Assembly (NCBI RefSeq): GCF_000331535.1
Contig: NZ_AMZN01000069.1
Coordinates: 1 to 64,000 of the forward strand
Direction of reading: 5' to 3'
Length of the DNA stretch: 64,000 bases
From: Fulvivirga imtechensis AK7
GTDB taxonomy: Bacteria; Bacteroidota; Bacteroidia; Cytophagales; Cyclobacteriaceae
Below the pieces are notes generated by a model. It searched no databases and was not told where the DNA came from. It worked only from the letters and a program-made list of their open reading frames with translations. The translations under genes were made by a program, and so were the position numbers. Within the stretch, counting starts at the first letter, position 1. Each line of letters begins with the position of its first letter. This document shows positions 30,482 through 47,230 of the stretch, piece by piece.

Positions 30482-30538
30482 AATTTTGAATTGCCTGTTG
30501 CTGACATTAAATTAAAATCATAAAAAATATATATAGTC

Positions 30539-32564: not shown

Positions 32565-33205
32565 TGCCTGTAATGCTTTATGACCAAATGACACAGCTAG
32601 AAAAAGATATACTACAGGAATTAATGAACATAATTCTGGCTAAAGCTGCTGATTCTTTTGCAAGAATATCAAAGGAAGAAGTGCTGATCAATGTGCCAAA
32701 ATTATATGAAGCTGACAAGGAATCGGCTTTGGAGGAATTATTTAACGATAATAGAATTGAAGTAATTATACAGTCAGAGGTTAAAGGTGATATCTATGCC
32801 CATACTTTGATCCTCTTTTCTGATAAACAGATCCGGATGTTTGAAGCTGCTTGCCTTAAAACAACCACAGTGACTAACAAAATGAGGGAATCCCTGCTAC
32901 TGGAGATAAGTAATATAGTAACAGGTACACTGGTAACGCACCTTGCAGATATCCTTAAAATAAATATTTACGGGTCGGTTCCAAGCGCCCCGATTTATCG
33001 TACTGCTGTCACTGAAAATGACCTGGTGCTGGACCTTGATCTGACTCGCCCTGTGCTTTTCACTGTAAATACGATATTTAAAAGCAGTCATCAGCAGGTC
33101 GATATGTCAATGGTTTTGATTTTTGATATTCCTAACCTGGAAAAGGTCATGAACCTGATCAGGAAGATAAACAAAAGAGAATTTAAATTACTATTAAAGG
33201 ACTAA
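32564..33205 (+). CDS. cheC: CheC-type phosphatase
   Basis: CheC-family proteins remove phosphate from CheY. The 213-residue product has two copies of the family's D/S-xxx-E-xx-N active-site signature. The first is DILQELMN near residue 14, the second SLLLEISN near 110, so both sites look intact. It is followed by an SVPSAPIY stretch typical of the fold. The start is a GTG at 32564 overlapping the cheA stop (TAGTG); an in-frame ATG at 32573 is an alternative. No CheD partner is encoded nearby. It closes the receptor-CheW-CheY-CheA operon. Confidence 0.85.
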   Translation: MPVMLYDQMTQLEKDILQELMNIILAKAADSFARISKEEVLINVPKLYEADKESALEELFNDNRIEVIIQSEVKGDIYAHTLILFSDKQIRMFEAACLKTTTVTNKMRESLLLEISNIVTGTLVTHLADILKINIYGSVPSAPIYRTAVTENDLVLDLDLTRPVLFTVNTIFKSSHQQVDMSMVLIFDIPNLEKVMNLIRKINKREFKLLLKD

Positions 33206-33274
33206 GTGCCCTCCTCTATCTAGCTTTATTATAATTTATTCCTTTATTTAGTAGTTAGAATTAAACCTAACTTT

Positions 33275-34246
33275 ATGAGCGATATATTGTACGATGAGGT
33301 GCCATCACTGGACCTCGCAGATTTTGATAGTGGCGATGCAGAACGCAGGAAGAAGTTTGTCAGAGAGCTGGGGGAAGCTTATAACAATATCGGATTTGTT
33401 GCAATAAAAAACCATTATCTGACGGATGAATTGTCGAAGAGCCTGTATACAGCTATACAGAAGTTCTTTTCTTTGCCCGATGAGGTGAAGCAAAAGTATG
33501 AAATAGAAGGTCTGGCAGGGCAGCGGGGCTATATAGGTAAAGGTAAAGAGCATGCTAAAGGCAGAACTACAGGAGACCTGAAAGAGTTTTTCCATATAGG
33601 ACAGGAAGTTACTGACAATGATCCCATCAAAGCAGAATATCCCGACAATGTGTGGGTAGAGGAGGTTCCCGAACTGAAGACAGTTGGTCTTGAAGTATAC
33701 CGAAGATTGGAAAAAACGGGAGTACAAATGCTAAGAGCCATAGCACTTTACCTTGGACTTGACGAGAACTATTTCGATAACAAAGTTAAGAATGGAAATA
33801 GTATCCTTAGGCCCATTCACTATTTTCCTATTGAAAATCCAGATGCTGTGCCCGCAGATGCAGTAAGAGCTGCTGAACATGGAGATATTAACCTTATTAC
33901 ACTATTAATGGGTGCCAGCGCTGACGGCTTGCAGGTGCTGAGGAAGGATGGAAAATGGATACCCATTACCGCACTTCCTGAGCAGTTGGTGGTCAATGTG
34001 GGTGATATGTTGGAGCGCCATACTAATAATAAGCTTAAATCTACAATACACCGGGTGGTCAACCCTCCCAAAGAACAGATGCGTACATCCAGGTATTCAA
34101 TTCCGTTTTTTATGCATCCCAGGTCTGAAATGGATCTCTCCTGTCTGGAGAATTGTATAGATGAGGCGCATCCTAAACAATTTGACGACATCTCAGCGGG
34201 AGATTTTCTGGACCAACGACTGGCAGAGATAGGTTTGAAGAAATAA
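33275..34246 (+). CDS. 2-oxoglutarate/Fe(II)-dependent oxygenase, isopenicillin N synthase type
   Basis: The product is a non-haem iron oxygenase of 323 residues. The N-terminal DIOX_N-like part (VPSLDLADFDSGDAERRKKFVRELGEAYNNIGFVAIKNH) leads to the double-stranded beta-helix core. The iron ligands are His and Asp of EHGDINLITLL near residue 200 and His of STIHRVVNPP near 257. The co-substrate-binding RYSIPFF (Arg-x-Ser) is near 274. The substrate is unknown; the family includes hydroxylases and ring-forming enzymes. The chromate-transporter gene starts 8 bp after it, so they may be co-transcribed. Confidence 0.9.
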   Translation: MSDILYDEVPSLDLADFDSGDAERRKKFVRELGEAYNNIGFVAIKNHYLTDELSKSLYTAIQKFFSLPDEVKQKYEIEGLAGQRGYIGKGKEHAKGRTTGDLKEFFHIGQEVTDNDPIKAEYPDNVWVEEVPELKTVGLEVYRRLEKTGVQMLRAIALYLGLDENYFDNKVKNGNSILRPIHYFPIENPDAVPADAVRAAEHGDINLITLLMGASADGLQVLRKDGKWIPITALPEQLVVNVGDMLERHTNNKLKSTIHRVVNPPKEQMRTSRYSIPFFMHPRSEMDLSCLENCIDEAHPKQFDDISAGDFLDQRLAEIGLKK

Positions 34247-34254
34247 GCCGGGAG

Positions 34255-35430
34255 TTGTTTAAGCGTGTACGATATTACATTTTTCTAAAAGACGTACTAC
34301 TACTTGCTTTAAGTGCTTTTGGAGGCCCACAGGCTCATATAGCTTTGATGTTTGACCTGATGGTGAAAAAAAGAAGGTACCTCTCAGAAGAGGATCTGAT
34401 AGAGCTTAATGCACTTTGTCAGATCCTTCCGGGGCCTACGTCTACACAAACCATAACGGCTATCGGGTTTCGCATAGGAGGCCCCAACCTCGCTTATCTT
34501 ACACTGTTGGTGTGGATGATACCGGCTGTAACTATTATGACAATTGCCGGCATAATCATTTCTCACTTACAAGCCCGGAGCATTTCGATTGAGTTCACCA
34601 AATTCATACAACCAATGGCGGTGGGTTTTGTGAGTTATGCGGCTCTCCGCATTAGTCAGAAAGTTATAAAAACTAAAACTGCAGCGGTCATTTTGGTGCT
34701 GGCGGCGATTGGGTCATTTGTATTTAAGTCTCCTTTCGTTTTTCCACTGCTGATCCTGGCAGGCGGGGCTTTTACCGCATTTAAGTATAAGGCTCAACCC
34801 ATTGAGGAGAAAGACCGGATCAAGATACAATGGGCAAATTTTATCCTGTGGGCAGGGTTCTTCGTATTTATCGCAGCGCTGGGTGGTGTCACCCGGTCCC
34901 TGCCCGTTCGGCTGCTGGAGAACTTCTACAGAAGCGGCAGTTTGATTTTTGGCGGTGGGCAGGTACTCATACCACTGCTCTATACCGAATTTGTTGAATT
35001 TAAGCGTTACCTCACTTCCGAAGAATTTTTAACAGGCTATGCCATGGTGCAGACCGTACCCGGACCGGTATTTTCATTCTGTGCTTATATAGGCACATTG
35101 GCCATGCGTAATTTTGGTATTGGGGGGCAGATTGTAGGTGCGTTGGTAGCATCCATAGGCATTTTTCTTCCCGGCACGTTTCTTATATTCTTTGTGATCA
35201 GGTTTTGGGAAGGGCTGAAGAAATATCGCATTATAAAGGCCTCGCTAGAGGGAATTAATGCAGCCAGTTCAGGAATGGTTGTCGCTGCAGCCGTGCTTAT
35301 GTTCCTTCCACTGGAGTCTAATGTGCAAAATATTGCGGTAATAGCAGGTACTTTTGTAGTGCTGGTGTTTACTAAAATTCCCGCCCCTGTGATTATCCTG
35401 CTTGGTTTGGGTGCCGGGTTTCTATTTTAA
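34255..35430 (+). CDS. chrA: Chromate transporter family (ChrA/CHR)
   Basis: The product is a membrane transporter of 391 residues with two homologous halves, each starting with the CHR motif. The first half has LSAFGGPQAHIALM then LCQILPGPTSTQTITAIGFRIGG (about residues 18-75). The second has LIFGGGQVLIPLLYTEFVE then MVQTVPGPVFSFCAYIGTLA (about 222-280). About ten to twelve membrane spans are predicted by eye. CHR proteins export chromate, often with sulfate-related physiology, but the actual substrate here is unproven. The start is a TTG at 34255; no in-frame ATG precedes it, so the start is less certain than the identity. Confidence 0.9.
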   Translation: MFKRVRYYIFLKDVLLLALSAFGGPQAHIALMFDLMVKKRRYLSEEDLIELNALCQILPGPTSTQTITAIGFRIGGPNLAYLTLLVWMIPAVTIMTIAGIIISHLQARSISIEFTKFIQPMAVGFVSYAALRISQKVIKTKTAAVILVLAAIGSFVFKSPFVFPLLILAGGAFTAFKYKAQPIEEKDRIKIQWANFILWAGFFVFIAALGGVTRSLPVRLLENFYRSGSLIFGGGQVLIPLLYTEFVEFKRYLTSEEFLTGYAMVQTVPGPVFSFCAYIGTLAMRNFGIGGQIVGALVASIGIFLPGTFLIFFVIRFWEGLKKYRIIKASLEGINAASSGMVVAAAVLMFLPLESNVQNIAVIAGTFVVLVFTKIPAPVIILLGLGAGFLF

Positions 35431-36056
35431 ATACTTTTATACAGCTTTCCTAGGGATCAATCTGTCACTGTTGTTAGCTGTAATCTACTTACTTTTTTAC
35501 ACGAAGAATTTAAAACACAGTGAAGTTTTATTTGAATTCCAGAGAATATATAATTCACTAGCGCGGCTTGCTATCTATCTATATTTTTAATTTTTTGATG
35601 TGAGTTGACATAGCTTCCGTGACCATAACCTTACCTTCGTTGCGATTTTGTCCTACTGTACCAGGTAGGTGTATTACAAATGGATCATGTTTGCTGAAGT
35701 GTGCTGAAGAGCAGTTTCCCTGCGAAAATTCAGTAATGTTTACCTGAACTTATGGCAAAAACACTGGCCTTTGGCCCAAAGCTGACTGGTTGGGTAGTAC
35801 GGTTTTTGTATGAAAAAGGGTCCTCGAATGGAGTAAATATTTTTTGCCATATTCCTCACCTTCTATTTTGGTTGATGTCATCGGTACATCTGTACAGCAG
35901 CATAAGCTCGTGATTGAATATAATTTCTGGTTTTTTAGGATGCGGTTCGGGCGGTTTTTTATGTTACCAGACGTCAGGAAGGATATTTTAATATAGAATA
36001 TTTATATTTGGTTTATACGCATTTAAAGTTTAGTTTATATATTATTTATTTTATAA
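35431..36056. other. Gene-free stretch
   Basis: Most of the 724-bp gap between the chromate transporter and the GNAT-like gene holds no open frame with coding character. Frames here are short and broken on both strands. The right third becomes strongly AT-rich and marks the left border of the AT-rich island. Confidence 0.6.
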
Positions 36057-36064
36057 TATATTTG
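36034..36064 (+). promoter_or_regulatory. Promoter-like site at the start of the peptide island
   Basis: TTTA (36034-36037), 19 nt and TATATTTG (36057-36064) fit the Bacteroidota promoter form with one -33 change. It is 90 bp ahead of the GNAT-like gene. Confidence 0.5.
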
Positions 36065-36154
36065 AGAATCCAAAATCAAAACTGTTACTTTTTTGGAATT
36101 TAGAGGTTAACGAAAAATTTTTACCACAGCATTTTTCACTTTGTTTAAGTATCT

Positions 36155-37162
36155 ATGAAATATTTACATATAACGGATAGAGCTGGATCTGGCATTACAG
36201 ATTTGCTCGAAGCCAATGAAATCGGTCAGCAGGGTCGTAGCATGGTTTACAGGCATTGCTATATCAGGCCCAAATTACATCATATTGCTTCAACTGTTGA
36301 ATACTTACAAATAAAATTGGCAGGAAGGGTAGTTGGTATGTGTGCCAATGTGAGCAGAACTTTGCTTAAGGAGCAGACAAAAGGATATTACTTTAGATAT
36401 TTTTCTTTTTTGCCTGGATTTAGGGTAGAGGAGTTGCCTAAAACTAAGAAAAACAAAAATTCAGTCCTAAAACAAGAGATAAATAACTATTTAGCTGCTC
36501 TAAATATTGGGTTAACATATGCCTATGTTGATTTAAATAATCTGCGCTCCCGGGCAATATGTGACCTTTTTAACTTTCAGGAAGCAGGTCAGTTTTCAAC
36601 AATTATTTTCTCCAGAATTTTTCCTAAAGCAGCTAATAACATTTCTAAAATAGATTTTATGGAAGTCAAAGAGCTACTTTGTGATCATTATAGAGATTAT
36701 AACCTATTTACCATTGATAATATTAAGTACGAACACGCGGACTATTATGTATTAAAACGTGATGGGAGGATCCTGGCCGGAATTGCAGCTACCAAAGAAA
36801 GATGGAAAATATTAAATATTCCAAGTGCTTTAGGTAAAGTGCTTTTGAAAGTAAAAATACCGTTTCTTCGCAGGCTATTCAATACTGACTATCGATTTCT
36901 TGCTATTGAGGGTATATATGCAAGGCAGGGTTGTGAAAATGAACTGAGCAACTTGCTAGAAGGTGTTCTGCAAGTTACCGGACATAACATAGCGATGATG
37001 TGGGCTGATATAAAATCTCCTTTATATCGAACTCTGAAGTCCCTGCCCTTGGGCATATTATCTAAGTTTAAATCTGAAGTAAAGGCCAGTGTTATCGTAA
37101 GAAACTATGAAGCCGGCAAACCTTTAAAAAATATCTATATATCCGGATTTGATTTAACATAA
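36155..37162 (+). CDS. GNAT-like acyltransferase candidate
   Basis: The product is a 335-residue soluble protein that I only partly recognise. Segments such as YYFRYFSFLPGFRVEEL (about 90) and LTYAYVDLNNLRSRAICDLFNFQEAGQFS (about 125-152) look like GNAT acetyltransferase strands and the helix after the acyl-CoA site. A second half (YYVLKRDGRILAGIAATKERWK, about 190-212) resembles another GNAT-type lobe. No clean Q/RxxGxG/A motif is visible, so enzymatic activity is uncertain. It lies 4 bp before the membrane regulator, in the same direction as the whole peptide cluster. It could modify the peptide or a lipid, or act elsewhere. Confidence 0.5.
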   Translation: MKYLHITDRAGSGITDLLEANEIGQQGRSMVYRHCYIRPKLHHIASTVEYLQIKLAGRVVGMCANVSRTLLKEQTKGYYFRYFSFLPGFRVEELPKTKKNKNSVLKQEINNYLAALNIGLTYAYVDLNNLRSRAICDLFNFQEAGQFSTIIFSRIFPKAANNISKIDFMEVKELLCDHYRDYNLFTIDNIKYEHADYYVLKRDGRILAGIAATKERWKILNIPSALGKVLLKVKIPFLRRLFNTDYRFLAIEGIYARQGCENELSNLLEGVLQVTGHNIAMMWADIKSPLYRTLKSLPLGILSKFKSEVKASVIVRNYEAGKPLKNIYISGFDLT

Positions 37163-37166
37163 GGAA

Positions 37167-38384
37167 ATGGAAGGCTTGCTAGAAGAATCAAAGAGGCGAT
37201 TGCTGTTGCCTACTATGGGGGCGAGGAGGAAACTGGTGATCGTTATGAACATTGTCTATGTGATAAGTACCATTTTTTTTCTTACATCGGAGAGGATTGC
37301 GGAAGGTAAGTTCGTCCCCCAAGTTTATCTTCTGTACTATATCTATGTACCGGCTATTATTTTAAATATTGGTTCTTTATTGTATAATCTTAGTGTTCTG
37401 GGAAAAGCAGAACTTTGGCAAAACATGCCGGAAATAAAGATCATGTTTTATGATAAAATAGCTGCATGGACAAGTATGGCAGCTATTATGATAATGAGTA
37501 CTGCTAACATGTTGGGTATAGGTAACCCGTCACAGGATGCAATTTTTACGGATTTTGCATTAGGACACGCCCTAATATTAGTAGTGGTTCTTGTTGTTGG
37601 ACGTAAAGGAGCTACCATTTGGTTTGTAATAGTTTTGGGCATTTTATTGTATAGAAGCTTTGATTTGGGCTTTGATTATCAATATCACTATATGACGTCT
37701 TCGGAGGTTGTAAAATATGAAAATGCACTTAAGAATAACGAAAAATGGGCAATAGAACGGCAAGATGTTTTAAATCAATCAGGGCTAAACCCACCTAAGG
37801 TTTCCCGATATATGAATATATGGCTAATTTTCATTGTAGTCAGCTATCTGACAGCATATTTCTTTTCGGGTATAACACTTGACCTAATTAAGGAAGTTCG
37901 CCCTGTTATAAACAACATTGAGGAAGTAGTAGAAGAAGGAAGTAAACTAAAGAATGAATTAGAACAGAGAAGAAATGAAGCTATCAAAGCAGCTCATCGA
38001 ATAAGTCGTACGGAAGAAACATTAAAAAAAATAGAAGAGGAACTTCATAAGTTAAGCTTTGAGCAGCGGAGTGCTTTCCAGCCTATTACCAGAGTAATTA
38101 AAGAAGAGTTACAGAAGGAAATCAATAGAGATTATAGAGTCTTTGAATTGAGTTTTGATTTAACCCAAAATGGTCATTTTGAAAAGCTGCAAAAGAAATA
38201 TCCACAACTTACACCGAATGAAATGAAGCTTCTGGGCTATTTTAAACTTAATATGAGTAATAAAGATATTGCGGATTTAATGGGAATAAAATCCGATTCA
38301 ATTAGGCAATCTAGGTCTAGAATTAAGAAAAAACTGGGATTAACTAGTGAAAACTGGATGGAAGAGTTACTGAATGGTATATAA
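37167..38384 (+). CDS. Membrane-anchored regulator with C-terminal LuxR-type HTH
   Basis: The product has 405 residues. About six membrane segments occupy residues 24-240 (VIVMNIVYVISTIFFL, IYVPAIILNIGSLLYNL, AAWTSMAAIMIMSTANML, ALILVVVLVVG, ATIWFVIVLGILLY, IWLIFIVVSYLTAYFF). A long coiled coil follows (about 245-310). The C-terminal helix-turn-helix reads LTPNEMKLLGYFKLNMSNKDIADLMGIKSDSIRQSRSRIKKKLGL in consecutive blocks. This is a Bacteroidota design for a membrane sensor that binds DNA directly. It stands just upstream of the peptide gene, with repeated TGTGACGTT sites between, so it probably controls the cluster. Confidence 0.8.
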   Translation: MEGLLEESKRRLLLPTMGARRKLVIVMNIVYVISTIFFLTSERIAEGKFVPQVYLLYYIYVPAIILNIGSLLYNLSVLGKAELWQNMPEIKIMFYDKIAAWTSMAAIMIMSTANMLGIGNPSQDAIFTDFALGHALILVVVLVVGRKGATIWFVIVLGILLYRSFDLGFDYQYHYMTSSEVVKYENALKNNEKWAIERQDVLNQSGLNPPKVSRYMNIWLIFIVVSYLTAYFFSGITLDLIKEVRPVINNIEEVVEEGSKLKNELEQRRNEAIKAAHRISRTEETLKKIEEELHKLSFEQRSAFQPITRVIKEELQKEINRDYRVFELSFDLTQNGHFEKLQKKYPQLTPNEMKLLGYFKLNMSNKDIADLMGIKSDSIRQSRSRIKKKLGLTSENWMEELLNGI

Positions 38385-38417
38385 CTATATAAATAATTTA
38401 TTATTATATACACACTT

Positions 38418-38458
38418 TGTGACGTTAAATTACGCTGATGTATACGTTCTGTGACGTT
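38418..38458. promoter_or_regulatory. Paired TGTGACGTT direct repeats ahead of the peptide gene
   Basis: TGTGACGTT occurs at 38418-38426 and again at 38450-38458, 32 bp apart (three helical turns). The gap between the regulator and the peptide gene would place these as binding sites for the HTH protein encoded just upstream. This is inference from position and spacing. Confidence 0.45.
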
Positions 38459-38576
38459 CAGGATTTGCAAAAGACTTTATTCGGAGGCTATACTTGAAGT
38501 GATTTTATGGCCATAAATCCGAGTAAATGACATAGCTCGTTTAAATATGTCAATAACATATAAATCAATCGAAAAA

Positions 38577-38765
38577 ATGAAAGAATTATCTTTAGAAAAA
38601 ATGGAGAATGTTGAGGGCGGAGGCTGTGGCGTGGCAACTCAAGTTGTTCTTGGCTTTTGGGCAAGTGGAATTGGATATGCATTTGGAGCGGTATCCGGTG
38701 GAATCGGTTTTGTAGCCGGTATGGTAGCAACAGGAGCTGTTATTGCGGTATGTGAATACTACTAA
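38577..38765 (+). CDS. Double-glycine leader bacteriocin-like precursor peptide
   Basis: This 62-residue precursor has a 15-residue leader, MKELSLEKMENVEGG, fitting the double-glycine type (L-x3-M-x2-V-x-GG) cut by C39 peptidases. The core begins GCGVATQ and ends AVCEYY: 47 residues, very hydrophobic, rich in Gly and Ala with several GxxxG-like spacings. It has just two cysteines, at core positions 2 and 44. An in-frame ATG at 38547 would add ten residues with no leader character, so I chose 38577. The C39 transporter, thioredoxin-like protein and ABC module follow. An antimicrobial role is inferred; a signalling role is possible. Confidence 0.8.
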   Translation: MKELSLEKMENVEGGGCGVATQVVLGFWASGIGYAFGAVSGGIGFVAGMVATGAVIAVCEYY

Positions 38766-38794
38766 ACTTAACTTAAATCCCATTTATTAGGTAA

Positions 38795-38883
38795 GGATCT
38801 GCCGAGGAAAGTTATTACTTCTTACTCCATTGGAGGGAAATTCGTTTTGCTTTAACTCTTTTTGGCAGATTCCTCCGCGAATT
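38795..38883 (+). promoter_or_regulatory. Stem-loop between the peptide gene and the transporter operon
   Basis: GGATCTGCC (38795-38803) pairs with GGCAGATTCC (38874-38883) with one bulge, enclosing a smaller CTCC-ATT-GGAG hairpin. It is placed where a partial terminator would favour peptide mRNA over transporter mRNA. There is no strong T-run after it. Confidence 0.4.
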
Positions 38884-38913
38884 TCAAAGATCTAAGTACA
38901 TATTTTACCCAGT

Positions 38914-39597
38914 ATGAAAATTTTTATTCTACTTTCTTACTATAAGCGATTGATTTTTAGAAATCCAAAGCTTTACTTCTATTTCATCACCTCCTTTATT
39001 GTCTACTTTATTGTCGTTGGCATGCTCATATTCTTACAAACGGTAGAAACTTTGAATCTTTATTTTCATAGACTTCTCATCTTTTCCTATATATTTCAAT
39101 TTTACTACAATCATCTGTACTATGGATTGGGATGGGAATCTTCCTTCCGCCATTTTGTTGCATTTCAAATCAGAATGAAGAATATCATTTATATGTACAT
39201 ATTTTTAAACCTTTCATATTTTGTGTTTTCTTTCATTTTAATAAAAGCTGTATCACTTACTCCTTGGCTTATAGTTGATTATAGCATCTTTAACATTATT
39301 ATTTTGTATTTTATCATACCAAACTTATTGTTTCTTATTGTTTTTCCACTTCTGACCATCTATGTTGATTTGTTCAACAGCAAAAAGGGTTTGGTAATTC
39401 ATAAGTTTTATGGGTTTCCCTTACTGGTATTGACTATTGCATTTCCTGCTATGTTTCAATACTTGTGGTCAAATTTTTCTGTTGGTCCAGAATTAATTTC
39501 TTGCCTATCAATTGTTTTTACAATAATTGTCATCAGCCGGTTTTCCCGGATAGTTAAATTTTGGGAGGATAGGTTATTACAAATTAAAGCAGAATAA
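38914..39597 (+). CDS. Integral membrane protein of the peptide ABC module
   Basis: The product has 227 residues with about six hydrophobic spans and almost no soluble part (FITSFIVYFIVVGMLIFL near 27, YIFLNLSYFVFSFILI near 94, IIILYFIIPNLLFLIVFPLL near 125, FPLLVLTIAFPAMFQYL near 167). Strongly AT-rich codon use is evident. I do not recognise a specific family. Being 14 bp before an ABC ATPase gene that lacks its own membrane domain, it is best read as an ABC-2 type permease subunit acting in self-protection or export of the peptide. Confidence 0.7.
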   Translation: MKIFILLSYYKRLIFRNPKLYFYFITSFIVYFIVVGMLIFLQTVETLNLYFHRLLIFSYIFQFYYNHLYYGLGWESSFRHFVAFQIRMKNIIYMYIFLNLSYFVFSFILIKAVSLTPWLIVDYSIFNIIILYFIIPNLLFLIVFPLLTIYVDLFNSKKGLVIHKFYGFPLLVLTIAFPAMFQYLWSNFSVGPELISCLSIVFTIIVISRFSRIVKFWEDRLLQIKAE

Positions 39598-39611
39598 ACA
39601 TAGGTATTTTT

Positions 39612-40232
39612 ATGAATATTTATATTGAAAAATTAGACATTAGTGTGAAAAAATTTCATCTACATTGTCATGATTTAAATTTTGATGTAGGTGATACTTT
39701 TCTGATAACTGCACCGAATGGAAGTGGCAAGAGTATGTTTCTAAAGGGGATAGTCGGGTTGGTGAAAACCAGCTATAGAAAGATCAAAATTAATGGTGTA
39801 TACACAAATGAATTAAACTTATCAAAAGTTATTGCGGCATATCTTGGAGAGGAATTTTTAATTCCATTTTACGAACCAATGGAATACTTCGAGTTGATCG
39901 GGAAAATAAAAGGCTTGGATGATTCTCAGATTAAGTTCGCAGTAGAGGGTATTAGCAAAATGTTTAATCAGGAGTGGCCTAAGAAATTTATCCGAGATTT
40001 ATCGACTGGTATGAAAAAGAAGGTGGGTTTGGCTGGGAGCTTGATAGGAAATCCTCAAATAATTATGTGGGATGAACCTTTTGAAAATGTAGATGATGAA
40101 GCACAGTGTTTACTTAGACAATTTATAGAAAACGATAAACGACTTATAATTTATTCCTCTCCCGTCAGGGACAACCTACCGCTTTCCAGAGTATTAGGTA
40201 TTGAATCCGGGAGAGTTTTAATAGAACAGTAA
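39612..40232 (+). CDS. ABC transporter ATP-binding protein
   Basis: This is a stand-alone nucleotide-binding subunit of 206 residues. Walker A is APNGSGKSMFLKGIVG near residue 35, the signature is IRDLSTGMKKKVGLAGSLIG near 131 (LSTGM in place of LSGGQ), and Walker B is IIMWDEPFENVDDEA near 152. The switch-His region reads LIIYSSPVRDN, with no clear His. It resembles the small ATPases of ABC-2 type lantibiotic-immunity and export systems. It sits between membrane-protein genes and probably energises them. Confidence 0.9.
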   Translation: MNIYIEKLDISVKKFHLHCHDLNFDVGDTFLITAPNGSGKSMFLKGIVGLVKTSYRKIKINGVYTNELNLSKVIAAYLGEEFLIPFYEPMEYFELIGKIKGLDDSQIKFAVEGISKMFNQEWPKKFIRDLSTGMKKKVGLAGSLIGNPQIIMWDEPFENVDDEAQCLLRQFIENDKRLIIYSSPVRDNLPLSRVLGIESGRVLIEQ

Positions 40233-40245
40233 GTATTTAGGTACC

Positions 40246-40818
40246 TTGAAGGCATATCTGTACATATATAAGATACTTGGTGATTACATCCGGAGAGTTG
40301 TTGCAAATTTTTTGTTTCAATTTTTCATTCTCCGGTACATAGAAATTACCTCCATATTGATAGCTGCTGTTGCCAGTGATATGTCTGAATCCAATGCAAA
40401 TATTATTCTCGGAGTTGTTGCTTTAATTCAATTATTTCCATCTCTAATGATGAATGAAGGTTATGTTAAGGTTATACCGTATATAAGAGTTATTTATCTT
40501 AATAAGAACGTGGTTCCTTTTTACCTACTCCTCAATACCGTAATCCCATTTATGATATATCTAATGTTACTTCTATTGGCTGACCCTGGGTCGCACATCT
40601 TCCAAGATATTAGTTTAATGTCTATTGTACTGTTTAATAATGCAATGTTTGCTCATTTTCTACATATTTTTTCATTTTCTATTAGGGATAGCATGTTGTA
40701 TTTACCCATCATGGTTGCCATTTACTTGATTGTGTTTATTCAGATTAATTTACTAGCAGCTCTTCCATTCACCGCAATGGCCATAACACTATTCATAATT
40801 AAAATCCGAAACTATTAA
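40246..40818 (+). CDS. Integral membrane protein of the peptide ABC module
   Basis: The product has 190 residues with about five hydrophobic spans (NFLFQFFILRYIEITSILIA near 22, NIILGVVALIQLFPSLMM near 52, VVPFYLLLNTVIPFMIYLMLLLL near 86, and two more after 120). The start is a TTG at 40246, since no fitting ATG precedes the first helix. The sequence does not point to a named family. Position between the ATPase and another membrane protein suggests it is a permease half. Confidence 0.62.
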   Translation: MKAYLYIYKILGDYIRRVVANFLFQFFILRYIEITSILIAAVASDMSESNANIILGVVALIQLFPSLMMNEGYVKVIPYIRVIYLNKNVVPFYLLLNTVIPFMIYLMLLLLADPGSHIFQDISLMSIVLFNNAMFAHFLHIFSFSIRDSMLYLPIMVAIYLIVFIQINLLAALPFTAMAITLFIIKIRNY

Positions 40819-40831
40819 ATATCAATTATAT

Positions 40832-41467
40832 ATGAAGTTGAATACCTTTTACCTGTTTGGGCTCCTTATTTTATCGTCAATTATACTTGGTGTTTTATTG
40901 GACAAAATTATACTTACGGATGAGGTTTTAGTTAATGGTTTTTACAATCAGCTGAGCTTGAGTAAAATAGAAGAACTAATTGATTACAAGGCCCGTCTGT
41001 CCTGGATAAACTACATGGTTCTTCCTGTATTTTACTTCGTCAAAATCCTTCTCATTGGTATTTGGATACTTAGCTGGACAATATTTTTTGGTCATAAAAT
41101 TAGCTTTAGAGAGATTTTAAGGGTGGTAATAAAAGCTGAATTCGTCTGGTTGATTCCTTCTTTAATTACCCTTATATGGTTTCATTTTATCGATACAAGT
41201 TACACACTTGTTGATATACAATATTTTCAGCCGCTTTCATTATTGAATTTTTTTAGCGTATCAGAGGTGGAAAATTGGCTTATTTTTCCATTACAAGCGC
41301 TTAGTTTATTTCAGGTGGCTTATATAATTTTCTTGGCGATTGGAATCAAGCAGGTTTTAAGCACTAATTATAATGCAGCTTTAACCTTTACTATTCCAGT
41401 TTATGGCTCGGCACTTATAACTTGGATTGTATTTATTACTTTTTTAAGTATGAACCTGGCCGCCTAG
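40832..41467 (+). CDS. Integral membrane protein of the peptide cluster
   Basis: The product has 211 residues with about five membrane spans: LFGLLILSSIILGVLLDKII at 9-28, INYMVLPVFYFVKILLIGIWIL near 59, AEFVWLIPSLITLIWF near 97, LFQVAYIIFLAIGIKQVL near 158, then VYGSALITWIVFITFLSM at the end. The layout resembles Yip1-like membrane proteins, but this is only an impression. Its TAG stop abuts the ATG of the thioredoxin-like gene (no gap), so the two are translationally coupled. Confidence 0.62.
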   Translation: MKLNTFYLFGLLILSSIILGVLLDKIILTDEVLVNGFYNQLSLSKIEELIDYKARLSWINYMVLPVFYFVKILLIGIWILSWTIFFGHKISFREILRVVIKAEFVWLIPSLITLIWFHFIDTSYTLVDIQYFQPLSLLNFFSVSEVENWLIFPLQALSLFQVAYIIFLAIGIKQVLSTNYNAALTFTIPVYGSALITWIVFITFLSMNLAA

Positions 41468-41944
41468 ATGAAAAAGAAGGCAATTCTTACTTTAGCTTTT
41501 TTGTTATTGTTGACTATTGGATGGGTAGGGTTTAAGGGAATTCGAAGACTCAACAAAAAGGCGGCGATCGAAAAAAAACAAGGTGACCTCTCATTGATGT
41601 TAAATCAAATCAATCAGGCTGATACTGATATCACCCCTACAACCATTCTTATCTTTTTTAATAGCGAATGCGAGCACTGCCAAGAGGAAATCAAGGAGGT
41701 CAGTAAAAACATTGGTGAATTAAAAAAGTATCAATTGTTTCTAATTTCCTATGAACCAGAAAATGAAGCTCTTGCTTTTTTAAGTAGGTATAACCTATCC
41801 AATTTCTATCTTAAATCCTCCCCTGAAAAAGTGATTTCTGCATTTGAGGGTAGTGTCCCTCAAACACTTATTTATAAAAAAGGTAAGCTGATCCAACATT
41901 TCAAGGGAGAAGTAAAAATCGAGACTATTTTAGATCTTTTATAA
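41468..41944 (+). CDS. Membrane-anchored thioredoxin-like protein (CEHC)
   Basis: The product has 158 residues with an N-terminal anchor or signal (AILTLAFLLLLTIGWVGF, residues 5-22) and a thioredoxin fold outside. The redox motif CEHC is at 68-71 in LIFFNSECEHCQEEI, and a cis-Pro loop follows (SVPQTLIY near 130). It would act in the periplasm. Its place 5 bp before the C39 transporter gene, in a cluster whose peptide has exactly two cysteines, suggests it handles the peptide's thiols or keeps the transporter's cysteines reduced. Confidence 0.85.
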   Translation: MKKKAILTLAFLLLLTIGWVGFKGIRRLNKKAAIEKKQGDLSLMLNQINQADTDITPTTILIFFNSECEHCQEEIKEVSKNIGELKKYQLFLISYEPENEALAFLSRYNLSNFYLKSSPEKVISAFEGSVPQTLIYKKGKLIQHFKGEVKIETILDLL

Positions 41945-41949
41945 CGGTA

Positions 41950-44106
41950 ATGAACCTATCCAAGCTTAACAAAAAGTTTATTCTACAGCACGGTCAATCG
42001 GATTGTGGGCCAGCTTGTCTTGCTTCTATTATACAATTTCATGGCGGAAATCGATCTTTGGATGAGATTAGAAGAGTAACAGGAACCAGTCAAAAAGGAA
42101 CAAAACTATTAGGACTTTATCAAGGGGCGAGGCAATTAGGTTTCGATGTGATAGGATTGGAAGCTGAAGGGATAACTAATCTTAGTGAACTTGATCAGCC
42201 GGCTATCCTACATGTCACACTTGAAAATCGTTTACTTCATTACATAGTATTTTATGGGTTTGTTGATGATAAAATGATCATTGGTGATCCCAGAAAGGGC
42301 ATTAGCTTGTGGAGCCCTGAACAACTACGGGAAGTTTGGCTGAGCAAGTCTCTGCTAAAGCTTGTGCCAAACCAAGATTTTAAAAAAGTACGAAAAAGGC
42401 GTTGGAGATTTCCCCAGTTAGTTGCGTGGATAAAAGAGGATATTAATATTCTAATGACTTCTCTATTTTTAGGAGTGTTAATTGCTATTTTCTCTCTTGC
42501 CACCTCTATTTTTATTCAAAAATTGATTGATGTAATCCTGCCCACAAAAGAAGTTATGAAGTTGCTCGTTGGAATAGTTTTATTTGGGTTTATTCTTTTG
42601 GCCAAGGCGGCTTTAAATTTTGTGCGCTCAACTTTCTTAATCACACAAAGTAGGGATTTTAATAACCGAATGATCGGTTATTTCTTTAAGTCGTTGCTGT
42701 GCCTTCCCAAACCGTTTTTTGATTCAAAAAAAATTGGAGAGATGATTGCTCGCATGAATGATGCTCGAAGGATTCAATTGGTAGTTAGCAATCTTGCTGG
42801 GAATATTATAATTGAGGGCTTAGTAGCGATGGCGTCATTAGCCGGGGTATTTTTTTATTCCTGGCAGGTTGGTATTCTTGTTTTTTCTCTTTTACCCATC
42901 TATATAGTTATTCTTAGGAATTTAAATAAACCCATCATTACTGCCCAAAAAGATGTGATGATTAAGCATGCTTTAAATGAAGGTAACTATATAGATGTAA
43001 TAAGCGGCATTTCTGAAATAAAAGCAACAGCAACAACTGAACTATTCCATGGGGCTACCAGCTTAATTTATAGGATTTTTCAGGATAGTATCTTCAAACT
43101 TGGGAAGATCCAAATTAAATTTAACCTTAGAACCGAGCTTGCGGGAGTGTTATTGATGCTCGCTGTAATGTCATTTTCTGCCTATTTAGTGATTGCAGAT
43201 CATCTTATGCTAGGGGTAATGATGGCTGTTTTGTCACTGTCCAGTTCCATTGGACCTTCGTTAGCGAAGCTAGCGGCCTTCAATATACAGTTTCAGGAAG
43301 CGAAAGTAGCTTTTAAGCGAATGGAAGAGTTTACAATGGTTGAAAAGGAAATGAATGACGGTGAACCTGCTAACAGTATCGTACCCATGGAAATAAAAAA
43401 CTTGTCTTTCAACTTTCCCGGATCACTTCCATTACTAAAAGACATAAGTTTGAAAATTGAACAAGGAAGGATTACTATGCTGTTAGGTGAAAGTGGAGTG
43501 GGGAAGAGTACCATTCTACAACTCATTCAGCGTTTTTATGAACCTGTATCTGGACAAATTCAGGCAAATGGCAAGAAAATAAACACAATACAGCTGGATT
43601 CATATAGAAAGCAGATAGCGGTAGTATCTCAGGAGATTAAGATCTTCAACAATTATTTACTATTCAATATTGCCTTATCAGAAGATCCGAAAATTCTGGA
43701 ACATGTTCCCATATGGTGCCAAGAAAATGGATTTGATCAATTTTTTTCCAAATTTCCACAAGGCTATATGACTTTACTTGGAGAAGAAGGTGCCAATATA
43801 TCAGGAGGACAGAGACAACTTGTTGGTCTTGCTCGTGCACTTTTTAGAAAACCGGATATTTTACTAATAGATGAAGGTACCTCTGCTATGGATAGACGCA
43901 CTGAGAACTTTATTTTAGAAATGTTACTTTCCTTTAAGGAAGAAATGGCCATACTCTTGGTTACACACCGAATAAAAACTGCCTCCATAGCGGACCACAT
44001 CTATATTTTAGAGAATGGAACAGTGGTTTCGCAAGGAACTCCGGAGAGCCTGATGCTATTCGATAATTTTTATAGCGAATCTTATAGGGAACTCTTATCA
44101 AGTTAA
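41950..44106 (+). CDS. Peptidase C39-containing ABC transporter (PCAT)
   Basis: This transporter cuts double-glycine leaders and exports the core peptide. The 718-residue product has a C39 peptidase domain at 1-135 with Gln13, Cys19 (QSDCGPACL), a His in LLHYIVFYGF near 97 and Asp in IIGDP. Six membrane spans follow (about 165-440), then the ATPase with Walker A GESGVGKSTIL near 517, signature NISGGQRQLVGLARALF near 620, and Walker B ILLIDEGTSAMDRRTE near 640 (Gly-Thr-Ser-Ala-Met replacing the common AlaThrSerAlaLeu). All catalytic residues look intact, so it should process the precursor encoded upstream. No HlyD-type adaptor gene is adjacent. Confidence 0.94.
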   Translation: MNLSKLNKKFILQHGQSDCGPACLASIIQFHGGNRSLDEIRRVTGTSQKGTKLLGLYQGARQLGFDVIGLEAEGITNLSELDQPAILHVTLENRLLHYIVFYGFVDDKMIIGDPRKGISLWSPEQLREVWLSKSLLKLVPNQDFKKVRKRRWRFPQLVAWIKEDINILMTSLFLGVLIAIFSLATSIFIQKLIDVILPTKEVMKLLVGIVLFGFILLAKAALNFVRSTFLITQSRDFNNRMIGYFFKSLLCLPKPFFDSKKIGEMIARMNDARRIQLVVSNLAGNIIIEGLVAMASLAGVFFYSWQVGILVFSLLPIYIVILRNLNKPIITAQKDVMIKHALNEGNYIDVISGISEIKATATTELFHGATSLIYRIFQDSIFKLGKIQIKFNLRTELAGVLLMLAVMSFSAYLVIADHLMLGVMMAVLSLSSSIGPSLAKLAAFNIQFQEAKVAFKRMEEFTMVEKEMNDGEPANSIVPMEIKNLSFNFPGSLPLLKDISLKIEQGRITMLLGESGVGKSTILQLIQRFYEPVSGQIQANGKKINTIQLDSYRKQIAVVSQEIKIFNNYLLFNIALSEDPKILEHVPIWCQENGFDQFFSKFPQGYMTLLGEEGANISGGQRQLVGLARALFRKPDILLIDEGTSAMDRRTENFILEMLLSFKEEMAILLVTHRIKTASIADHIYILENGTVVSQGTPESLMLFDNFYSESYRELLSS

Positions 44107-44553
44107 TAAGTTGGTTATGTCCTAATGGTCGATCGGGTATTCTGTACCCCTGAGTGACTTTGAATCTAGGACTGTTGCGAGGAACACAACCGTGTAGAAG
44201 GCATAAGTGACACTATAGCTGAACACTTGTGCATATGTTTAATAACGTGGGTTTGAGTTGAAACGATTGGGAAATGACGTTATCCTGCATGTCCCGAGCT
44301 AATTCCCTGGGAGGCAACCCACAACCTTTAGTTGATTTTGTGTATAATGACATAGCTACCTGAACGGCCCCTGAACGGCCTTGAGAAATGACATTCCGCT
44401 GACAGCCAAATCCTTTAGCAATGGCCGTAGGAATTTTAATGGGACATGTAAATTCTATCACTCACATTGTTTAATCCCCGTTTTCCACCGAGTTTTGGGT
44501 GAGGGGTCCCTTCCACTTCTGGATGACTCTGCTTTTAAGGTATATGTTAATTT
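44107..44553. repeat. Repeat-rich gap with an inverted family B/C copy
   Basis: No gene is visible. From about 44236 to 44440 the sequence is a diverged reverse-complement match to 57691-57877. Shared parts include TCAAGGCCGTTC, AGCTATGTCATTAT, AAAATCAACTAAA and GCAGGAT, and the outer end resembles AACGTGAGTTCGATATA. The motif AGCTGAACACTTGTGC at about 44217 recurs as CGCTGAACACTTGTGC at about 44889. Confidence 0.65.
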
Positions 44554-44775
44554 AACGTAAGTTCGATATAGTAGAACCGATTAAATTGTATTCGTATCCA
44601 AAAATAACCTAAAACCCTCTTTTAAGGTCCCCGAACTTGCCTTCGGGGAGGCTGAAGAATCTTACTAAGTTCAAGGATACTACCAGCAACATAGGAAGAT
44701 CCTTCTCCCGAAAGCCTTAAAGCCTTCGGGATAGGATGACTGCCTTTTTTAAGCATTTTATATCGAACTCAAGTT
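44554..44775. repeat. Family B inverted-terminus repeat, copy 1
   Basis: This 222-bp element has ends AACGTAAGTTCGATATA and TATATCGAACTCAAGTT, which are near-perfect inverted repeats. The interior carries ACCTAAAACCCTCTTTTAAGG and an AGCCTTAAAGCCTTCGGG block and matches the copy at 62741-62935 in reverse orientation. Confidence 0.85.
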
Positions 44776-44871
44776 ATTTAATAACACGTCCAGGATAAAA
44801 AGTACAAGGCATGGATCTTCAGTTTTTATCTGTAAAAGAGCTGTGAGGCTGAAGATTGGAAATTGATACAA

Positions 44872-44905
44872 GGCACAAGTGAGGCTATCGCTGAACACTT
44901 GTGCC
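44872..44905 (-). terminator. Hairpin after the tonB gene
   Basis: GGCACAAGTG (44872-44881) and CACTTGTGCC (44896-44905) form a perfect 10-bp stem with a 14-nt loop just beyond the stop of the minus-strand tonB gene. The T-run is weak, so termination is only likely. Confidence 0.5.
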
Positions 44906-44917
44906 AGGTAAAATAGC

Positions 44918-45592
44918 TTAGTTTAGCTGAAAAGCTATTCGTATCATGATCCTTTGACTTACGGGAACGCCTCTCTGCCTAGGCGGATTCCAATCCGGTG
45001 CATTTTGCAGAATTCGTACAGCTTCTTCGTCGCAGCCAGCGCCTATGCCTCGTGCTATTTGTATATCTTTGACTTTACCATCTCGATCGACTACAAACTG
45101 TACAAACACTTTGCCTTCGATACCCATTCTCCGTGCCTGTGGGGGATAACGTAAATTTTTGGCCACATATTCATAGAAGGCTGCATATCCACCTTTAGGA
45201 GTTGCAGGTTCTTCAACAATTTGGAATATTTCCTCTGCCACCTCTTCTTCAGGCGCCTCCTCTATGATGATGTCTTCGATCACCTTTTCCTCAGTGATTT
45301 CCACATCCAGGTCTATTTCTATTTCTTCTTCAATCTCTTCTTCATCAGGCACTTCTATGATCTCGGGTTGTTGGATCTTGGGAGGTGGGGGAGGTGGCTG
45401 TTCAGTGGGTGGTATTTCCAGCAGGTCTTCGAAGTCGTCCTGTACCTGTCCCAGGTCAACGAAGTTACCGGTATCATAATTGCGCCATTCGAAAGCGCAA
45501 ACTGTTAGAGCGAGTGCCACGAGCAGTCCAATCTGAAAGAAGAGCCCTGCTTTTTTATGCACATCTGCAGAGGAATGTTTTTTTATCTCCAT
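44918..45592 (-). CDS. tonB: TonB family energy transducer (copy 1)
   Basis: TonB passes proton-motive force to outer-membrane TonB-dependent receptors. The 224-residue product has one N-terminal membrane span (FFQIGLLVALALTVCAFEW, about 18-36) and a Pro-rich segment (EQPPPPPPKIQQPEI). A very acidic Glu-rich linker (about 80-125) follows. The C-terminal TonB domain shows YPPQARRMGIEGKVFVQFVVDRDGKVKD and GIGAGCDEEAVR in consecutive blocks. It is a tandem paralogue of the next gene, with the same length and an almost identical linker. Two palindromes abut its start codon. Confidence 0.93.
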   Translation of the reverse strand: MEIKKHSSADVHKKAGLFFQIGLLVALALTVCAFEWRNYDTGNFVDLGQVQDDFEDLLEIPPTEQPPPPPPKIQQPEIIEVPDEEEIEEEIEIDLDVEITEEKVIEDIIIEEAPEEEVAEEIFQIVEEPATPKGGYAAFYEYVAKNLRYPPQARRMGIEGKVFVQFVVDRDGKVKDIQIARGIGAGCDEEAVRILQNAPDWNPPRQRGVPVSQRIMIRIAFQLN

Positions 45593-45628
45593 AACTAATT
45601 ATTTAGTTATAAAACTAATGAATTAGTT
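45593..45628. promoter_or_regulatory. Two AACTAA-N4-TTAGTT palindromes at a tonB start
   Basis: AACTAATTATTTAGTT (45593-45608) and AACTAATGAATTAGTT (45613-45628) share arms and are centred 20 bp apart. They begin one base from the minus-strand start codon. They could be operators for a dimeric regulator or leader RNA hairpins that cover the start. Confidence 0.55.
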
Positions 45629-45633
45629 GTTTA

Positions 45634-45667
45634 AATCAAAAAGAAGCCCGGATTTTTACTCCGGGCT
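45634..45667 (-). terminator. Intrinsic terminator after tonB copy 2
   Basis: On the minus strand AGCCCGG (45667-45661) and CCGGGCT (45651-45645) form a 7-bp stem with a 9-nt loop, followed by TCTTTTTGAT. Confidence 0.8.
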
Positions 45668-45673
45668 CTTAAT

Positions 45674-46348
45674 TTATCCTAGTTTAAAGGTAATTGGCAA
45701 AATAATTCTTTGCTTTACAGGTTTACCTCTTTGCTTCGGAGGGCTCCATTTTGGCGCGCCTTGAATAACACGCACAGCCTCCTCGTCACAACCTGCACCA
45801 ATACCTTTAACGGCTTGTACTTCTGTAAGAGTTCCGTCTTTATCTACAACAAACTGTACATATACTTTACCCTCAATACCCATACGTCTGGCCTGGGCAG
45901 GATACTTTAGTTTGTCAGCCACATATTTGTAGAAAGCTTCATAGCCACCAGGAGGTGTCGCAGGGTCTTCCACAATCATGAAAACTTCCTCGGCTACTTC
46001 TTCTTCCGGAGCCTCTTCCACAATAATATCTTCTATCACTTTTTCCTCTGTGATCTCTACGTCAAGGTCTACTTCAATTTCTTCTTCTATCTCTTCCTCA
46101 TCAGGAACCTCGATAATTTCCGGCTGCTGGATCTTTGGCGGAGGGGGAGGTGGTTGCTCCGTTGGCGGTATTTCCAACAGGTCTTCGAAATCGTCCTGTA
46201 CCTGACCTAAGTCAACAAGATCTCCTTCATCATAATTCTTCCATTCGAAAGCCAGTACCACGAGGCACATGCTAACAAGGAGACCTATGTTAAAAAGGAG
46301 TCCTGATTTTTTATTCAGGTCAGCTTTTTCTGTCTTTTTAGCTTCCAT
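45674..46348 (-). CDS. tonB: TonB family energy transducer (copy 2)
   Basis: The product has 224 residues with the same plan as its neighbour: membrane span at about 18-36 (LLFNIGLLVSMCLVVLAFEW), EQPPPPPPKIQQPEIIEVPDE linker start, Glu-rich stretch, then the C-terminal domain (YPAQARRMGIEGKVYVQFVVDKDGTLTEV and GIGAGCDEEAVRVIQG in consecutive blocks). Differences from copy 1 cluster in the C-terminal domain, where receptors are contacted. It has its own promoter-like site and terminator, so the two are probably separate transcription units. Confidence 0.93.
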   Translation of the reverse strand: MEAKKTEKADLNKKSGLLFNIGLLVSMCLVVLAFEWKNYDEGDLVDLGQVQDDFEDLLEIPPTEQPPPPPPKIQQPEIIEVPDEEEIEEEIEVDLDVEITEEKVIEDIIVEEAPEEEVAEEVFMIVEDPATPPGGYEAFYKYVADKLKYPAQARRMGIEGKVYVQFVVDKDGTLTEVQAVKGIGAGCDEEAVRVIQGAPKWSPPKQRGKPVKQRIILPITFKLG

Positions 46349-46391
46349 TATTAATGTACTCTTTATTTAAAATTAGAATGAGTCGTGTTTT

Positions 46392-46399
46392 CAAATATA
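46392..46399 (-). promoter_or_regulatory. -7 promoter element for tonB copy 2
   Basis: On the minus strand TATATTTG (46399-46392) matches TAnnTTTG, 44 bp before the start codon. No good TTTG is found at the standard distance upstream, so this is a weaker call. Confidence 0.4.
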
Positions 46400-46420
46400 C
46401 AAAACTTAATTAATTTTCTA

Positions 46421-46789
46421 TCAAGCTTTGTATTTATTGCGTATATAAAACAAGCACAGTCCCAAAAAAGATCCGGCTATATTTGCCAGAGCATCATACA
46501 TTTCCATCGATCTGCCGGGTATTACGGCCTGTGCCAGTTCGATCAGAAACCCATACAGCGCTGAAAGTATAACACCCAAGGTAAGCATACTGTTTCGCTT
46601 GATATGGTCTTTCCTGCTTTCATACAGGCCGCTGATCAGGAGAAAGGCCAATACAAAGAAGACAAACCCATGCCCTAGTTTGTCGTATGAAAAAAGGGTA
46701 AGATCGGGTACTGATTCACCGGGTGTCAGCGTAAGTACAAGTATTACTATGGCCCACAGAATTGACCCGATCAGATATTTATTGGGCAT
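46421..46789 (-). CDS. VanZ family membrane protein
   Basis: The product is a small integral membrane protein of 122 residues with about four spans, including LIGSILWAIVILVLTLTPGESVPD at the start (the typical VanZ opening), FSYDKLGHGFVFFVLAFLLISGL near 30-55, and GVILSALYGFLIELAQAVIPGRSMEMYDALANIAGSFLG near 72-110. VanZ-like proteins are linked to teicoplanin resistance in one case, but most have no known function. It starts 2 bp after the gcvH stop and is probably co-transcribed with it. Confidence 0.88.
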   Translation of the reverse strand: MPNKYLIGSILWAIVILVLTLTPGESVPDLTLFSYDKLGHGFVFFVLAFLLISGLYESRKDHIKRNSMLTLGVILSALYGFLIELAQAVIPGRSMEMYDALANIAGSFLGLCLFYIRNKYKA

Positions 46790-46791
46790 TA

Positions 46792-47172
46792 TCAGGCGCC
46801 TATTACCTCTTTATAAGCGTCAGCATCCAACAGTTCATCCAGTTGGCTTTGGTCTGACATCCTGATCTTTATCATCCAACCTTTCTCATAAGGATCTTCG
46901 TTTACAAGTTCAGGAGAACCCTCGAGGTCGGTATTCACTTCTTCCACAGTACCGCTTACGGGCATGAACAGGTCAGAAACTGTTTTTACTGCTTCCACAG
47001 TACCAAATACTTCGCCTTGTTCAATGTCTTCTCCTTCTGTTTCGATTTCAACATAAACGATATCGCCAAGTTCTCCCTGAGCAAAATCTGTGATTCCTAC
47101 TGTAGCAATGTCTCCATCAACTTTGATCCATTCGTGATCTTTGGTGTATTTCAATGATTGAGGTATGTTCAT
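46792..47172 (-). CDS. gcvH: Glycine cleavage system H protein
   Basis: This is the lipoyl carrier that shuttles the aminomethyl group between the P, T and L proteins in glycine breakdown. The 126-residue product has [35 protein letters not shown] at the start. The lipoylated Lys sits in [18 protein letters not shown] near residue 63, followed by [14 protein letters not shown]. The P, T and L genes are not in the window. It leads into vanZ with a 2-bp gap. Confidence 0.96.
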
Positions 47173-47197
47173 TATGTTTTTTGGTTAATTTTTGATT

Positions 47198-47228
47198 CAA
47201 AAATACATTCTTTTTCCTAATGCGAAAA
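47198..47228 (-). promoter_or_regulatory. Promoter for gcvH-vanZ
   Basis: On the minus strand TTTT (47228-47225), 19 nt and TATTTTTG (47205-47198) match the Bacteroidota consensus with one -33 change. The site begins at the sprA stop codon region, so gcvH need not depend on the sprA transcript. Confidence 0.6.
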
Positions 47229-47230
47229 TA

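Follow-up and report, generated by a model that had tools for sequence, protein, structure and literature searches.

The 64,000-nucleotide stretch of Fulvivirga imtechensis AK7 analysed here (the window, positions 1 to 64,000 of contig NZ_AMZN01000069.1) contains an inserted island of nine genes, P1 to P9, in which a bacteroidetocin-type peptide export cassette accompanies a hydrophobic double-glycine (GG) precursor, a putative immunity exporter of the ATP-binding cassette (ABC) type and a putative regulatory pair. In the reading that we favour and consider probable, the island makes a class II bacteriocin that is exported in the bacteroidetocin manner, carries a disulfide closed by P8 and acts on membranes, with P4-P5-P6 providing immunity and P1-P2 controlling expression. 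We file it as a bacteroidetocin-type export system with a different, hydrophobic class of peptide and dedicated self-protection, and not as a bacteroidetocin locus proper. The features are as follows:

36155-37162, forward strand: P1, protein of predicted tandem GNAT fold, nearest to N-myristoyltransferase (NMT)
37167-38384, forward strand: P2, sensor with five transmembrane (TM) segments, a coiled coil and a C-terminal LuxR-type helix-turn-helix (HTH)
38577-38765, forward strand: P3, probable bacteriocin precursor, 15-residue GG leader and 47-residue hydrophobic Gly/Ala-rich core
38914-39597, forward strand: P4, 6-TM protein, putative immunity ABC permease
39612-40232, forward strand: P5, ABC ATPase of the putative immunity exporter
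40246-40818, forward strand: P6, 5-TM protein, putative second immunity ABC permease
40832-41467, forward strand: P7, 5-TM export accessory protein of the bacteroidetocin-type cassette
41468-41944, forward strand: P8, membrane-anchored thioredoxin-like protein with CEHC
41950-44106, forward strand: P9, C39 peptidase ABC transporter
35432-44916: inserted island, delimited by BLAST against the junctions of relatives and by a drop in guanine-cytosine (GC) content

A first-pass annotation, made from the letters of the window, had described eight genes in one direction; the shared strand and the coordinates were borne out, and the count becomes nine open reading frames (ORFs; 36155-44106). The intergenic gaps measure 192 bases between P2 and P3, 148 between P3 and P4 and 0-14 elsewhere, a spacing that suggests two units, P1-P2 and P3-P9.

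The export cassette is formed by P7, P8 and P9. P9 matches the Pfam C39 (2.4e-26), ABC membrane (8e-25) and ABC ATPase (4.8e-31) families and displays Cys19, the segments with His97 and Asp113, a Walker A motif at 513, a signature at 617 and a Walker B motif at 638. P8 carries CEHC at position 68 and a match to AhpC-TSA that lies just above the cut-off (4.6e-6, 27 versus 26 bits). P7 yields an AlphaFold2 model of high predicted local distance difference test score (pLDDT 96.1), for which no PDB match was found at E <= 0.001; its identification as a plain Yip1 protein was rejected, a Yip1 match being present in 2 of 55 members (best 0.0055).

This cassette is conserved beyond what chance would produce. 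P7 occurs within 5.5 kb of 87 C39 genes at 86 loci (one locus, L078, contributes two), loci that were picked through P7 or P9 matches and are not a random sample; P8 is also present at 76 of the 87, the order P7-P8-C39 is kept at 70 of these 76, and all 76 P8 relatives recognised contain CxxC. At E <= 1e-120, P9 is matched in 73 of the 390 genomes of the same family and in 18 of the 395 from the phylum, both lower bounds because no more than two candidates were scored per genome; P7 is matched at E <= 0.01 in 101 of 148 genomes of the family. The source genome itself (6.7 Mb in 225 contigs) has seven C39 matches, one of them weak.

P7 relatives are also found apart from C39 genes. Eight copies in the fetched loci have no C39 gene within 5 kb, and relatives stand away from C39 genes at G000:C43 15723-16166, L041 3525-7332 and L083 6621-10564, next to a TMEM260-like (PF11028) membrane protein in L041 and next to a 985-residue 9-TM protein, similar in size to that TMEM260-like protein, in L083. 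Such relatives seem widespread in the family, and a housekeeping gene may have been the origin of the export helper.

The precursor P3 has 62 residues and consists of the 15-residue leader MKELSLEKMENVEGG and a 47-residue core with cysteines at core positions 2 and 44. A longer frame begins at 38547; position 38577 was taken as the start because it gives the consensus 15-residue leader. After leaders had been re-cut by rule (by hand in L100, L111 and L120) and 80 cassette precursors had been collapsed to 79 distinct ones, a leader of this length was present in 74 of the 79. At least two cysteines are found in 77 of the 79 cores, compared with 8 of 29 GG peptides encoded at C39 genes without P7 (Fisher 7e-14), a control set reduced from 34 by dropping five rows (L125, L134 and L135; cassette contigs cut short or an implausible precursor) and in which locus L200 was kept despite its cassette-like leader. 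Exactly two cysteines occur in 67 of the 79 cores, the first no more than 10 residues from the start in 66 and the last no more than 10 residues from the end in 55. Combined with the presence of P8, this two-cysteine rule strongly suggests that the P3 peptide would be closed by a disulfide.

In the consulted sections of Coyne et al. 2019 (PMC6671954), a bacteroidetocin region consists of a gene for a 5-TM protein of unknown function, a GG peptide with a 15-residue leader, a thiol oxidoreductase and a C39 ABC transporter. The same sections report that (i) this four-gene region suffices for toxin production in E. coli, (ii) deletion of the TM or the thiol gene attenuates the toxin, (iii) cleavage takes place after GG, and (iv) the regions have no obvious immunity gene, their producers being self-inhibiting. 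Bacteroidetocins, according to the consulted part of another study, kill through BamA (PMC8546649), and a commentary, also consulted in part, describes class II bacteriocins as predicted in bulk in Bacteroidota (PMC12648078). The island resembles the bacteroidetocins (class IIf) as there described in its 15-residue GG leader (15-16 in the class) and in having at least two core cysteines. It differs from them in its core, which is hydrophobic and Gly/Ala-rich with terminal cysteines (grand average of hydropathy, GRAVY, 1.31, the eighth most hydrophobic of the 79 cassette cores), and in the addition of the ABC trio P4-P5-P6, a putative immunity set, and of the regulator pair P1-P2. Searches with plasmids yielded no bacteroidetocin locus, and in the portions of the Bacteroidota literature consulted we recognised no paper describing a hydrophobic class with an ABC trio.

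The first-pass annotation thus named the type of island correctly, as one for peptide maturation and export: the C39 cassette recurs with GG precursors, the GG precursor at 38577-38765 shares its leader length and pattern with 74 of 79 precursors at such loci, the CxxC thioredoxin-like protein is P8, and the intact Cys19 and ATPase motifs are there, all motifs sought in P9 and P5 being present. It could assign the membrane proteins to no system it could name. P7, with P8 and P9, fits the bacteroidetocin set; P4 and P6 belong to a separate ABC set with P5.

Class IIb microcins such as E492 and microcin V likewise combine a GG leader and a hydrophobic Gly/Ala-rich core with C39 ABC export. The island is like them in leader, core and exporter, with profile matches that are weak and below cut-off (MccV 0.038, E492 0.021); no HlyD-type adaptor match was found among its nine proteins, which include P7 and P8 instead.

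Across the cassette loci, the cargo falls into two kinds. A division at GRAVY 0.7 gives 42 hydrophobic cores (median Gly+Ala 37%) and 37 polar ones (20%); the bacteroidetocin-type cassettes carry either polar disulfide peptides or hydrophobic Gly/Ala-rich peptides with terminal cysteines. G...G spacing is enriched in the hydrophobic cores (89 versus 66.7; 0 of 500 shuffles), but not clearly so in the polar ones (20 versus 15.4; 64 of 500 shuffles). The hydrophobic kind is linked to membrane protein genes: a multi-TM gene lies directly downstream of 24 of the 42 hydrophobic cores and of 2 of the 37 polar ones, against a background of 160 among 1030 other ORFs in the loci. Counted from the next gene, cores with GRAVY > 0.7 precede 24 of 26 multi-TM genes versus 5 of the 29 genes that encode soluble or 1-TM proteins of 120 or more amino acids (p 1.4e-8), the 24 of 79 precursors whose next gene is of neither type being left out; the link persists after clustering of the cores (19 of 20 versus 3 of 15, p 6e-6), where 16 of 51 clusters have no majority type. 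For 15 precursors, the run of genes downstream includes one for an ATPase; 12 of these precursors have GRAVY > 0.7, and 13 are accompanied by a large membrane protein.

Other genes also occupy the position next to the precursor. A gene of 400-490 codons comes next after nine polar-core precursors, none with GRAVY above 0.32 (L098 12267-13583, L079 8174-9493 and seven other loci). Both such proteins that were scanned contain a CarboxypepD_reg_2 domain, and these genes perhaps serve outer-membrane passage or protection. Two small next-gene proteins were scanned, one giving a sub-threshold lipocalin match and the other nothing.

In the island, the position downstream of the precursor is taken by P4-P5-P6. 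P5 has its ATPase motifs at 36, 130 and 152 and matches ABC_tran (1.5e-14), and a search for its relatives gave two remote loci. A small ATPase and two multi-TM proteins of about 200 residues each, encoded beside a membrane-active peptide gene, are the plan of the LanFEG-type ABC exporters that confer lantibiotic immunity. The trio is like LanFEG in this plan; P5 falls far under the cut-off of the NCBIfam lantibiotic protection ATPase (58.5 bits, cut-off 309.75), and P4 and P6 belong to no Pfam or NCBIfam family. P4 matched its own genome only, among 58, and Pfam gave no match at E <= 0.1 for ten trio permeases. The position of P4 is common to the trios of other loci. Trio membrane proteins diverge between loci, save for a few related pairs (e.g. 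L046/L096), while P7-P9 are conserved, which is the pattern expected of immunity specific to a toxin or cargo. Alternatively, the trio could be a second export or assembly stage for hydrophobic cores, as its frequent location between the precursor and P7 in a single gene run might indicate; given this divergence, and given that at several hydrophobic cores the trio position is filled by no more than a small gene for 2-4 TM segments or by no recognised gene, we consider such a role quite unlikely. P4-P5-P6 are better read as a separate ABC set that accompanies mostly hydrophobic cores and for which immunity is likelier than maturation.

Several observations weigh against the bacteriocin-with-immunity reading. 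The likeness of the 5-TM protein, thiol oxidoreductase and C39 transporter to the bacteroidetocin set, as described in the consulted sections, is one of gene type and order and not of aligned sequence, and the TM numbers are Kyte-Doolittle hydropathy counts and not the output of a topology program. The hydrophobicity rule has 7 exceptions in 55 (2 multi-TM, 5 soluble), for 18 of the 42 hydrophobic cores the adjacent gene is not a multi-TM one, and 3 of the 15 cores with an ATPase nearby fall below the hydrophobicity line. A recognised P8 is missing at 11 of the 87 C39 genes, and the seven precursors parsed at seven of these 11 still hold two or four cysteines; cysteine content is thus not tied to P8 alone. 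Among the loci compared, no sequence relative of P4 or P6 could be detected; the immunity role therefore rests on position and topology, and both proteins could act in maturation. Finally, both the bacteriocin activity and the membrane target of the P3 peptide are predictions from gene content.

The first-pass annotation had proposed that precursor homologues found without a C39 gene would count against a single peptide system, and such homologues exist in part. A search with P3 against 98 genomes gave seven places besides its own, of which four are at C39 cassettes and one (G078) is a match without a leader, where no precursor-like ORF was seen, that we took as chance. The other two (G130 and G032) each lie beside a 4-TM gene, in a stretch of 12 kb where no C39 transporter gene is present; as both genomes carry a C39 cassette on another contig, we read these precursors as satellites and not as a refutation. 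In G130 there is also a less clear second precursor and another related 4-TM gene. At L204 281-3427 and L205 2243-5433, GG precursors with 4-TM neighbours, and in L205 also an ABC set, stand in 12 kb of sequence that lacks a C39 transporter gene and may be satellite bacteriocin-immunity cassettes.

The two genes at the head of the island encode a protein of unusual predicted fold and a membrane-bound regulator. The AlphaFold2 model of P1, built from 18 sequences (pLDDT 86.7, predicted template modelling score, pTM, 0.85), fits a tandem GNAT fold over its whole length, and all 50 Foldseek matches listed, of 214 at E <= 0.001, are NMT (best E 6.9e-13, query template modelling score, TMq, 0.64, probability 1.00). 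P1 is like eukaryotic NMT in this predicted fold; it differs from it in sequence (about 10% identity) and in being bacterial. A sequence search gave four PDB matches at E <= 10, none of them NMT, the NMT_C profile PF02799 gave a single match at E <= 10 in the source genome, elsewhere than P1, and the Q/R-x-x-G-x-G/A coenzyme A (CoA) loop, in an alignment by eye, is absent from P1 and present in the L176 member. Because these sequence searches miss NMT and the CoA loop is missing, we call P1 NMT-like by predicted fold only. The C-terminal end is conserved, all 18 aligned members finishing S-x-x-D-x-x; in NMT, the C-terminal carboxylate lies in the active site. Synthesis of an acyl signal by P1 is possible. 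In the portions of the open-access literature consulted, we found no recognisable report of a bacterial NMT fold.

P2 matches LuxR/GerE (2.7e-6) and has five TM segments by hydropathy count, in agreement with the first-pass description of a membrane-anchored HTH regulator. The GNAT-like character ascribed to P1 holds for the predicted fold and for 6 of the 18 aligned family members, which match Acetyltransf_1 at E <= 1 (best 6.3e-8), but P1 has no Pfam GNAT match of its own. The view that all genes form one peptide system holds for the export core, which recurs, but not for the GNAT/regulator pair, which is not a fixed part of it. P1 relatives (E <= 1e-5) are present in 19 of 395 phylum genomes and P2 relatives (E <= 1e-20) in 5 of 148 same-family genomes, own included in both counts. 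P2 adjoins P1 at 5 of the 18 P1 loci examined (the window, L046, L064, L065 and L176), two of the five being at a cassette. A P2 relative without P1 occurs in L066, beside a 266-residue response-regulator-like protein, and the P2 sensor half is joined to a different output half in L066 and L176, which by eye resembles LytS-type kinases. In L065 (8381-18533, genome G081), the P1-P2 pair immediately precedes a set of conjugative transfer genes (P-loop_TraG 1.2e-77), a hint that the pair can control other mobile cargo. The island pair would presumably be regulatory; a more specific scheme, in which P1 makes an N-acylated signal that P2 reads and this previously undescribed pair thereby switches on a disulfide-bonded glycine-zipper bacteriocin with its ABC immunity pump, is tentative, and we judge it unlikely.

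This distribution bears on two further interpretations. C39 exporters also carry pheromones in Gram-positive bacteria, and P2, directly upstream of the precursor, couples sensing at the membrane to a DNA-binding domain; the cassette could accordingly export a secreted signal that P2 senses, P1-P2 and the peptide forming a quorum circuit. We hold this to be very unlikely: the P1-P2 pairs in L064, L065 and L176 have no recognised C39 gene nearby, P1 is present in 4 of 111 stretches compared, two of these with a cassette, and a 47-residue glycine-zipper core beside a dedicated ABC set resembles a toxin with its immunity. P1 could also take part in maturation, as an acyltransferase of NMT fold that attaches a lipid to the precursor and so yields a lipo-bacteriocin, in keeping with its predicted fold, with Gly as the first residue of the mature core and with the GNAT enzymes that lipidate some ribosomally synthesized and post-translationally modified peptides, such as the tandem GNAT NpuN (PMC13060382, consulted in part). 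This possibility is highly improbable considering that P1 accompanies two of the cassettes compared and lies away from a cassette at 16 of 18 P1 loci, that Gly is first in 6 of the 42 hydrophobic cores, and that P1 belongs to a separate unit, 5′ of P2 and apart from the precursor.

The segment 35432-44916 is an insertion. Its neighbours are a TonB gene (44918-45592) on one side and, on the other, a chromate transporter gene (34255-35430) that each of the 14 relatives searched within the genus possesses. BLAST of the window showed that in G001 (L207) the sequences matching 35167-35431 and 44917-49993 abut, 0 bases separating them, and in G014 (L208) the same flanks are joined with about 7 bases between. 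The site is therefore empty at two of the four same-genus junctions examined; at the other two, in G008 and G004, about 570 and about 170 bases separate the flanks, without a match to the island. The GC content is 31-38% across the island genes versus about 40-45% in most flanking windows (0.376-0.393 in some). In another genus (G101, L046), the gene types from the GNAT protein to the C39 transporter are found again, along with additional small genes and with the ABC trio arranged differently. No simple cause of the insertion was found among extra ORFs (none of more than 82 residues in the island besides the nine genes; no integrase profile was run), tRNA genes (none in 30000-50000) or end repeats (no direct or inverted repeat of at least 9 at the island ends tested). 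A Bacteroidota −33/−7 promoter in the island, sought by its consensus, was rejected, with four matches in the window versus 2.69 expected and none inside the island; counts of sigma-70-like and terminator-like elements were at chance.

Adjoining the insertion point are two tandem TonB genes (44918-46348) with very similar acidic/proline linkers, only one of the pair being seen at the G008 and G004 junctions. Further along the window, 47231-54415 encodes a SprA-type motility/secretion protein (SprA_N 4.1e-179).

Combining these observations, we propose the following model for the island. P1-P2 would control expression. The 15-residue leader would present the precursor to the exporter, whose C39 domain would cut after Gly-Gly during export, as deduced from the C39 family and from the consulted sections on bacteroidetocins (PMC6671954), with the 5-TM P7 as a needed export helper. 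P8, with its CxxC on the periplasmic side, would close the Cys2-Cys44 disulfide and give a 47-residue hydrophobic glycine-zipper loop, which may insert into the membranes of competitors. The P4-P5-P6 exporter, LanFEG-like in plan, would shield the inner membrane of the producer.

These findings suggest that exporters of the bacteroidetocin type serve as a general platform for at least two kinds of disulfide peptide, and that a sequence rule, a hydrophobic core with a multi-TM neighbour, predicts which peptides carry immunity genes. As published bacteroidetocin regions lack an obvious immunity gene in the sections consulted, the ABC trio makes the question of self-protection directly testable. 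P1, if its predicted fold holds, would add a bacterial protein that resembles N-myristoyltransferase.

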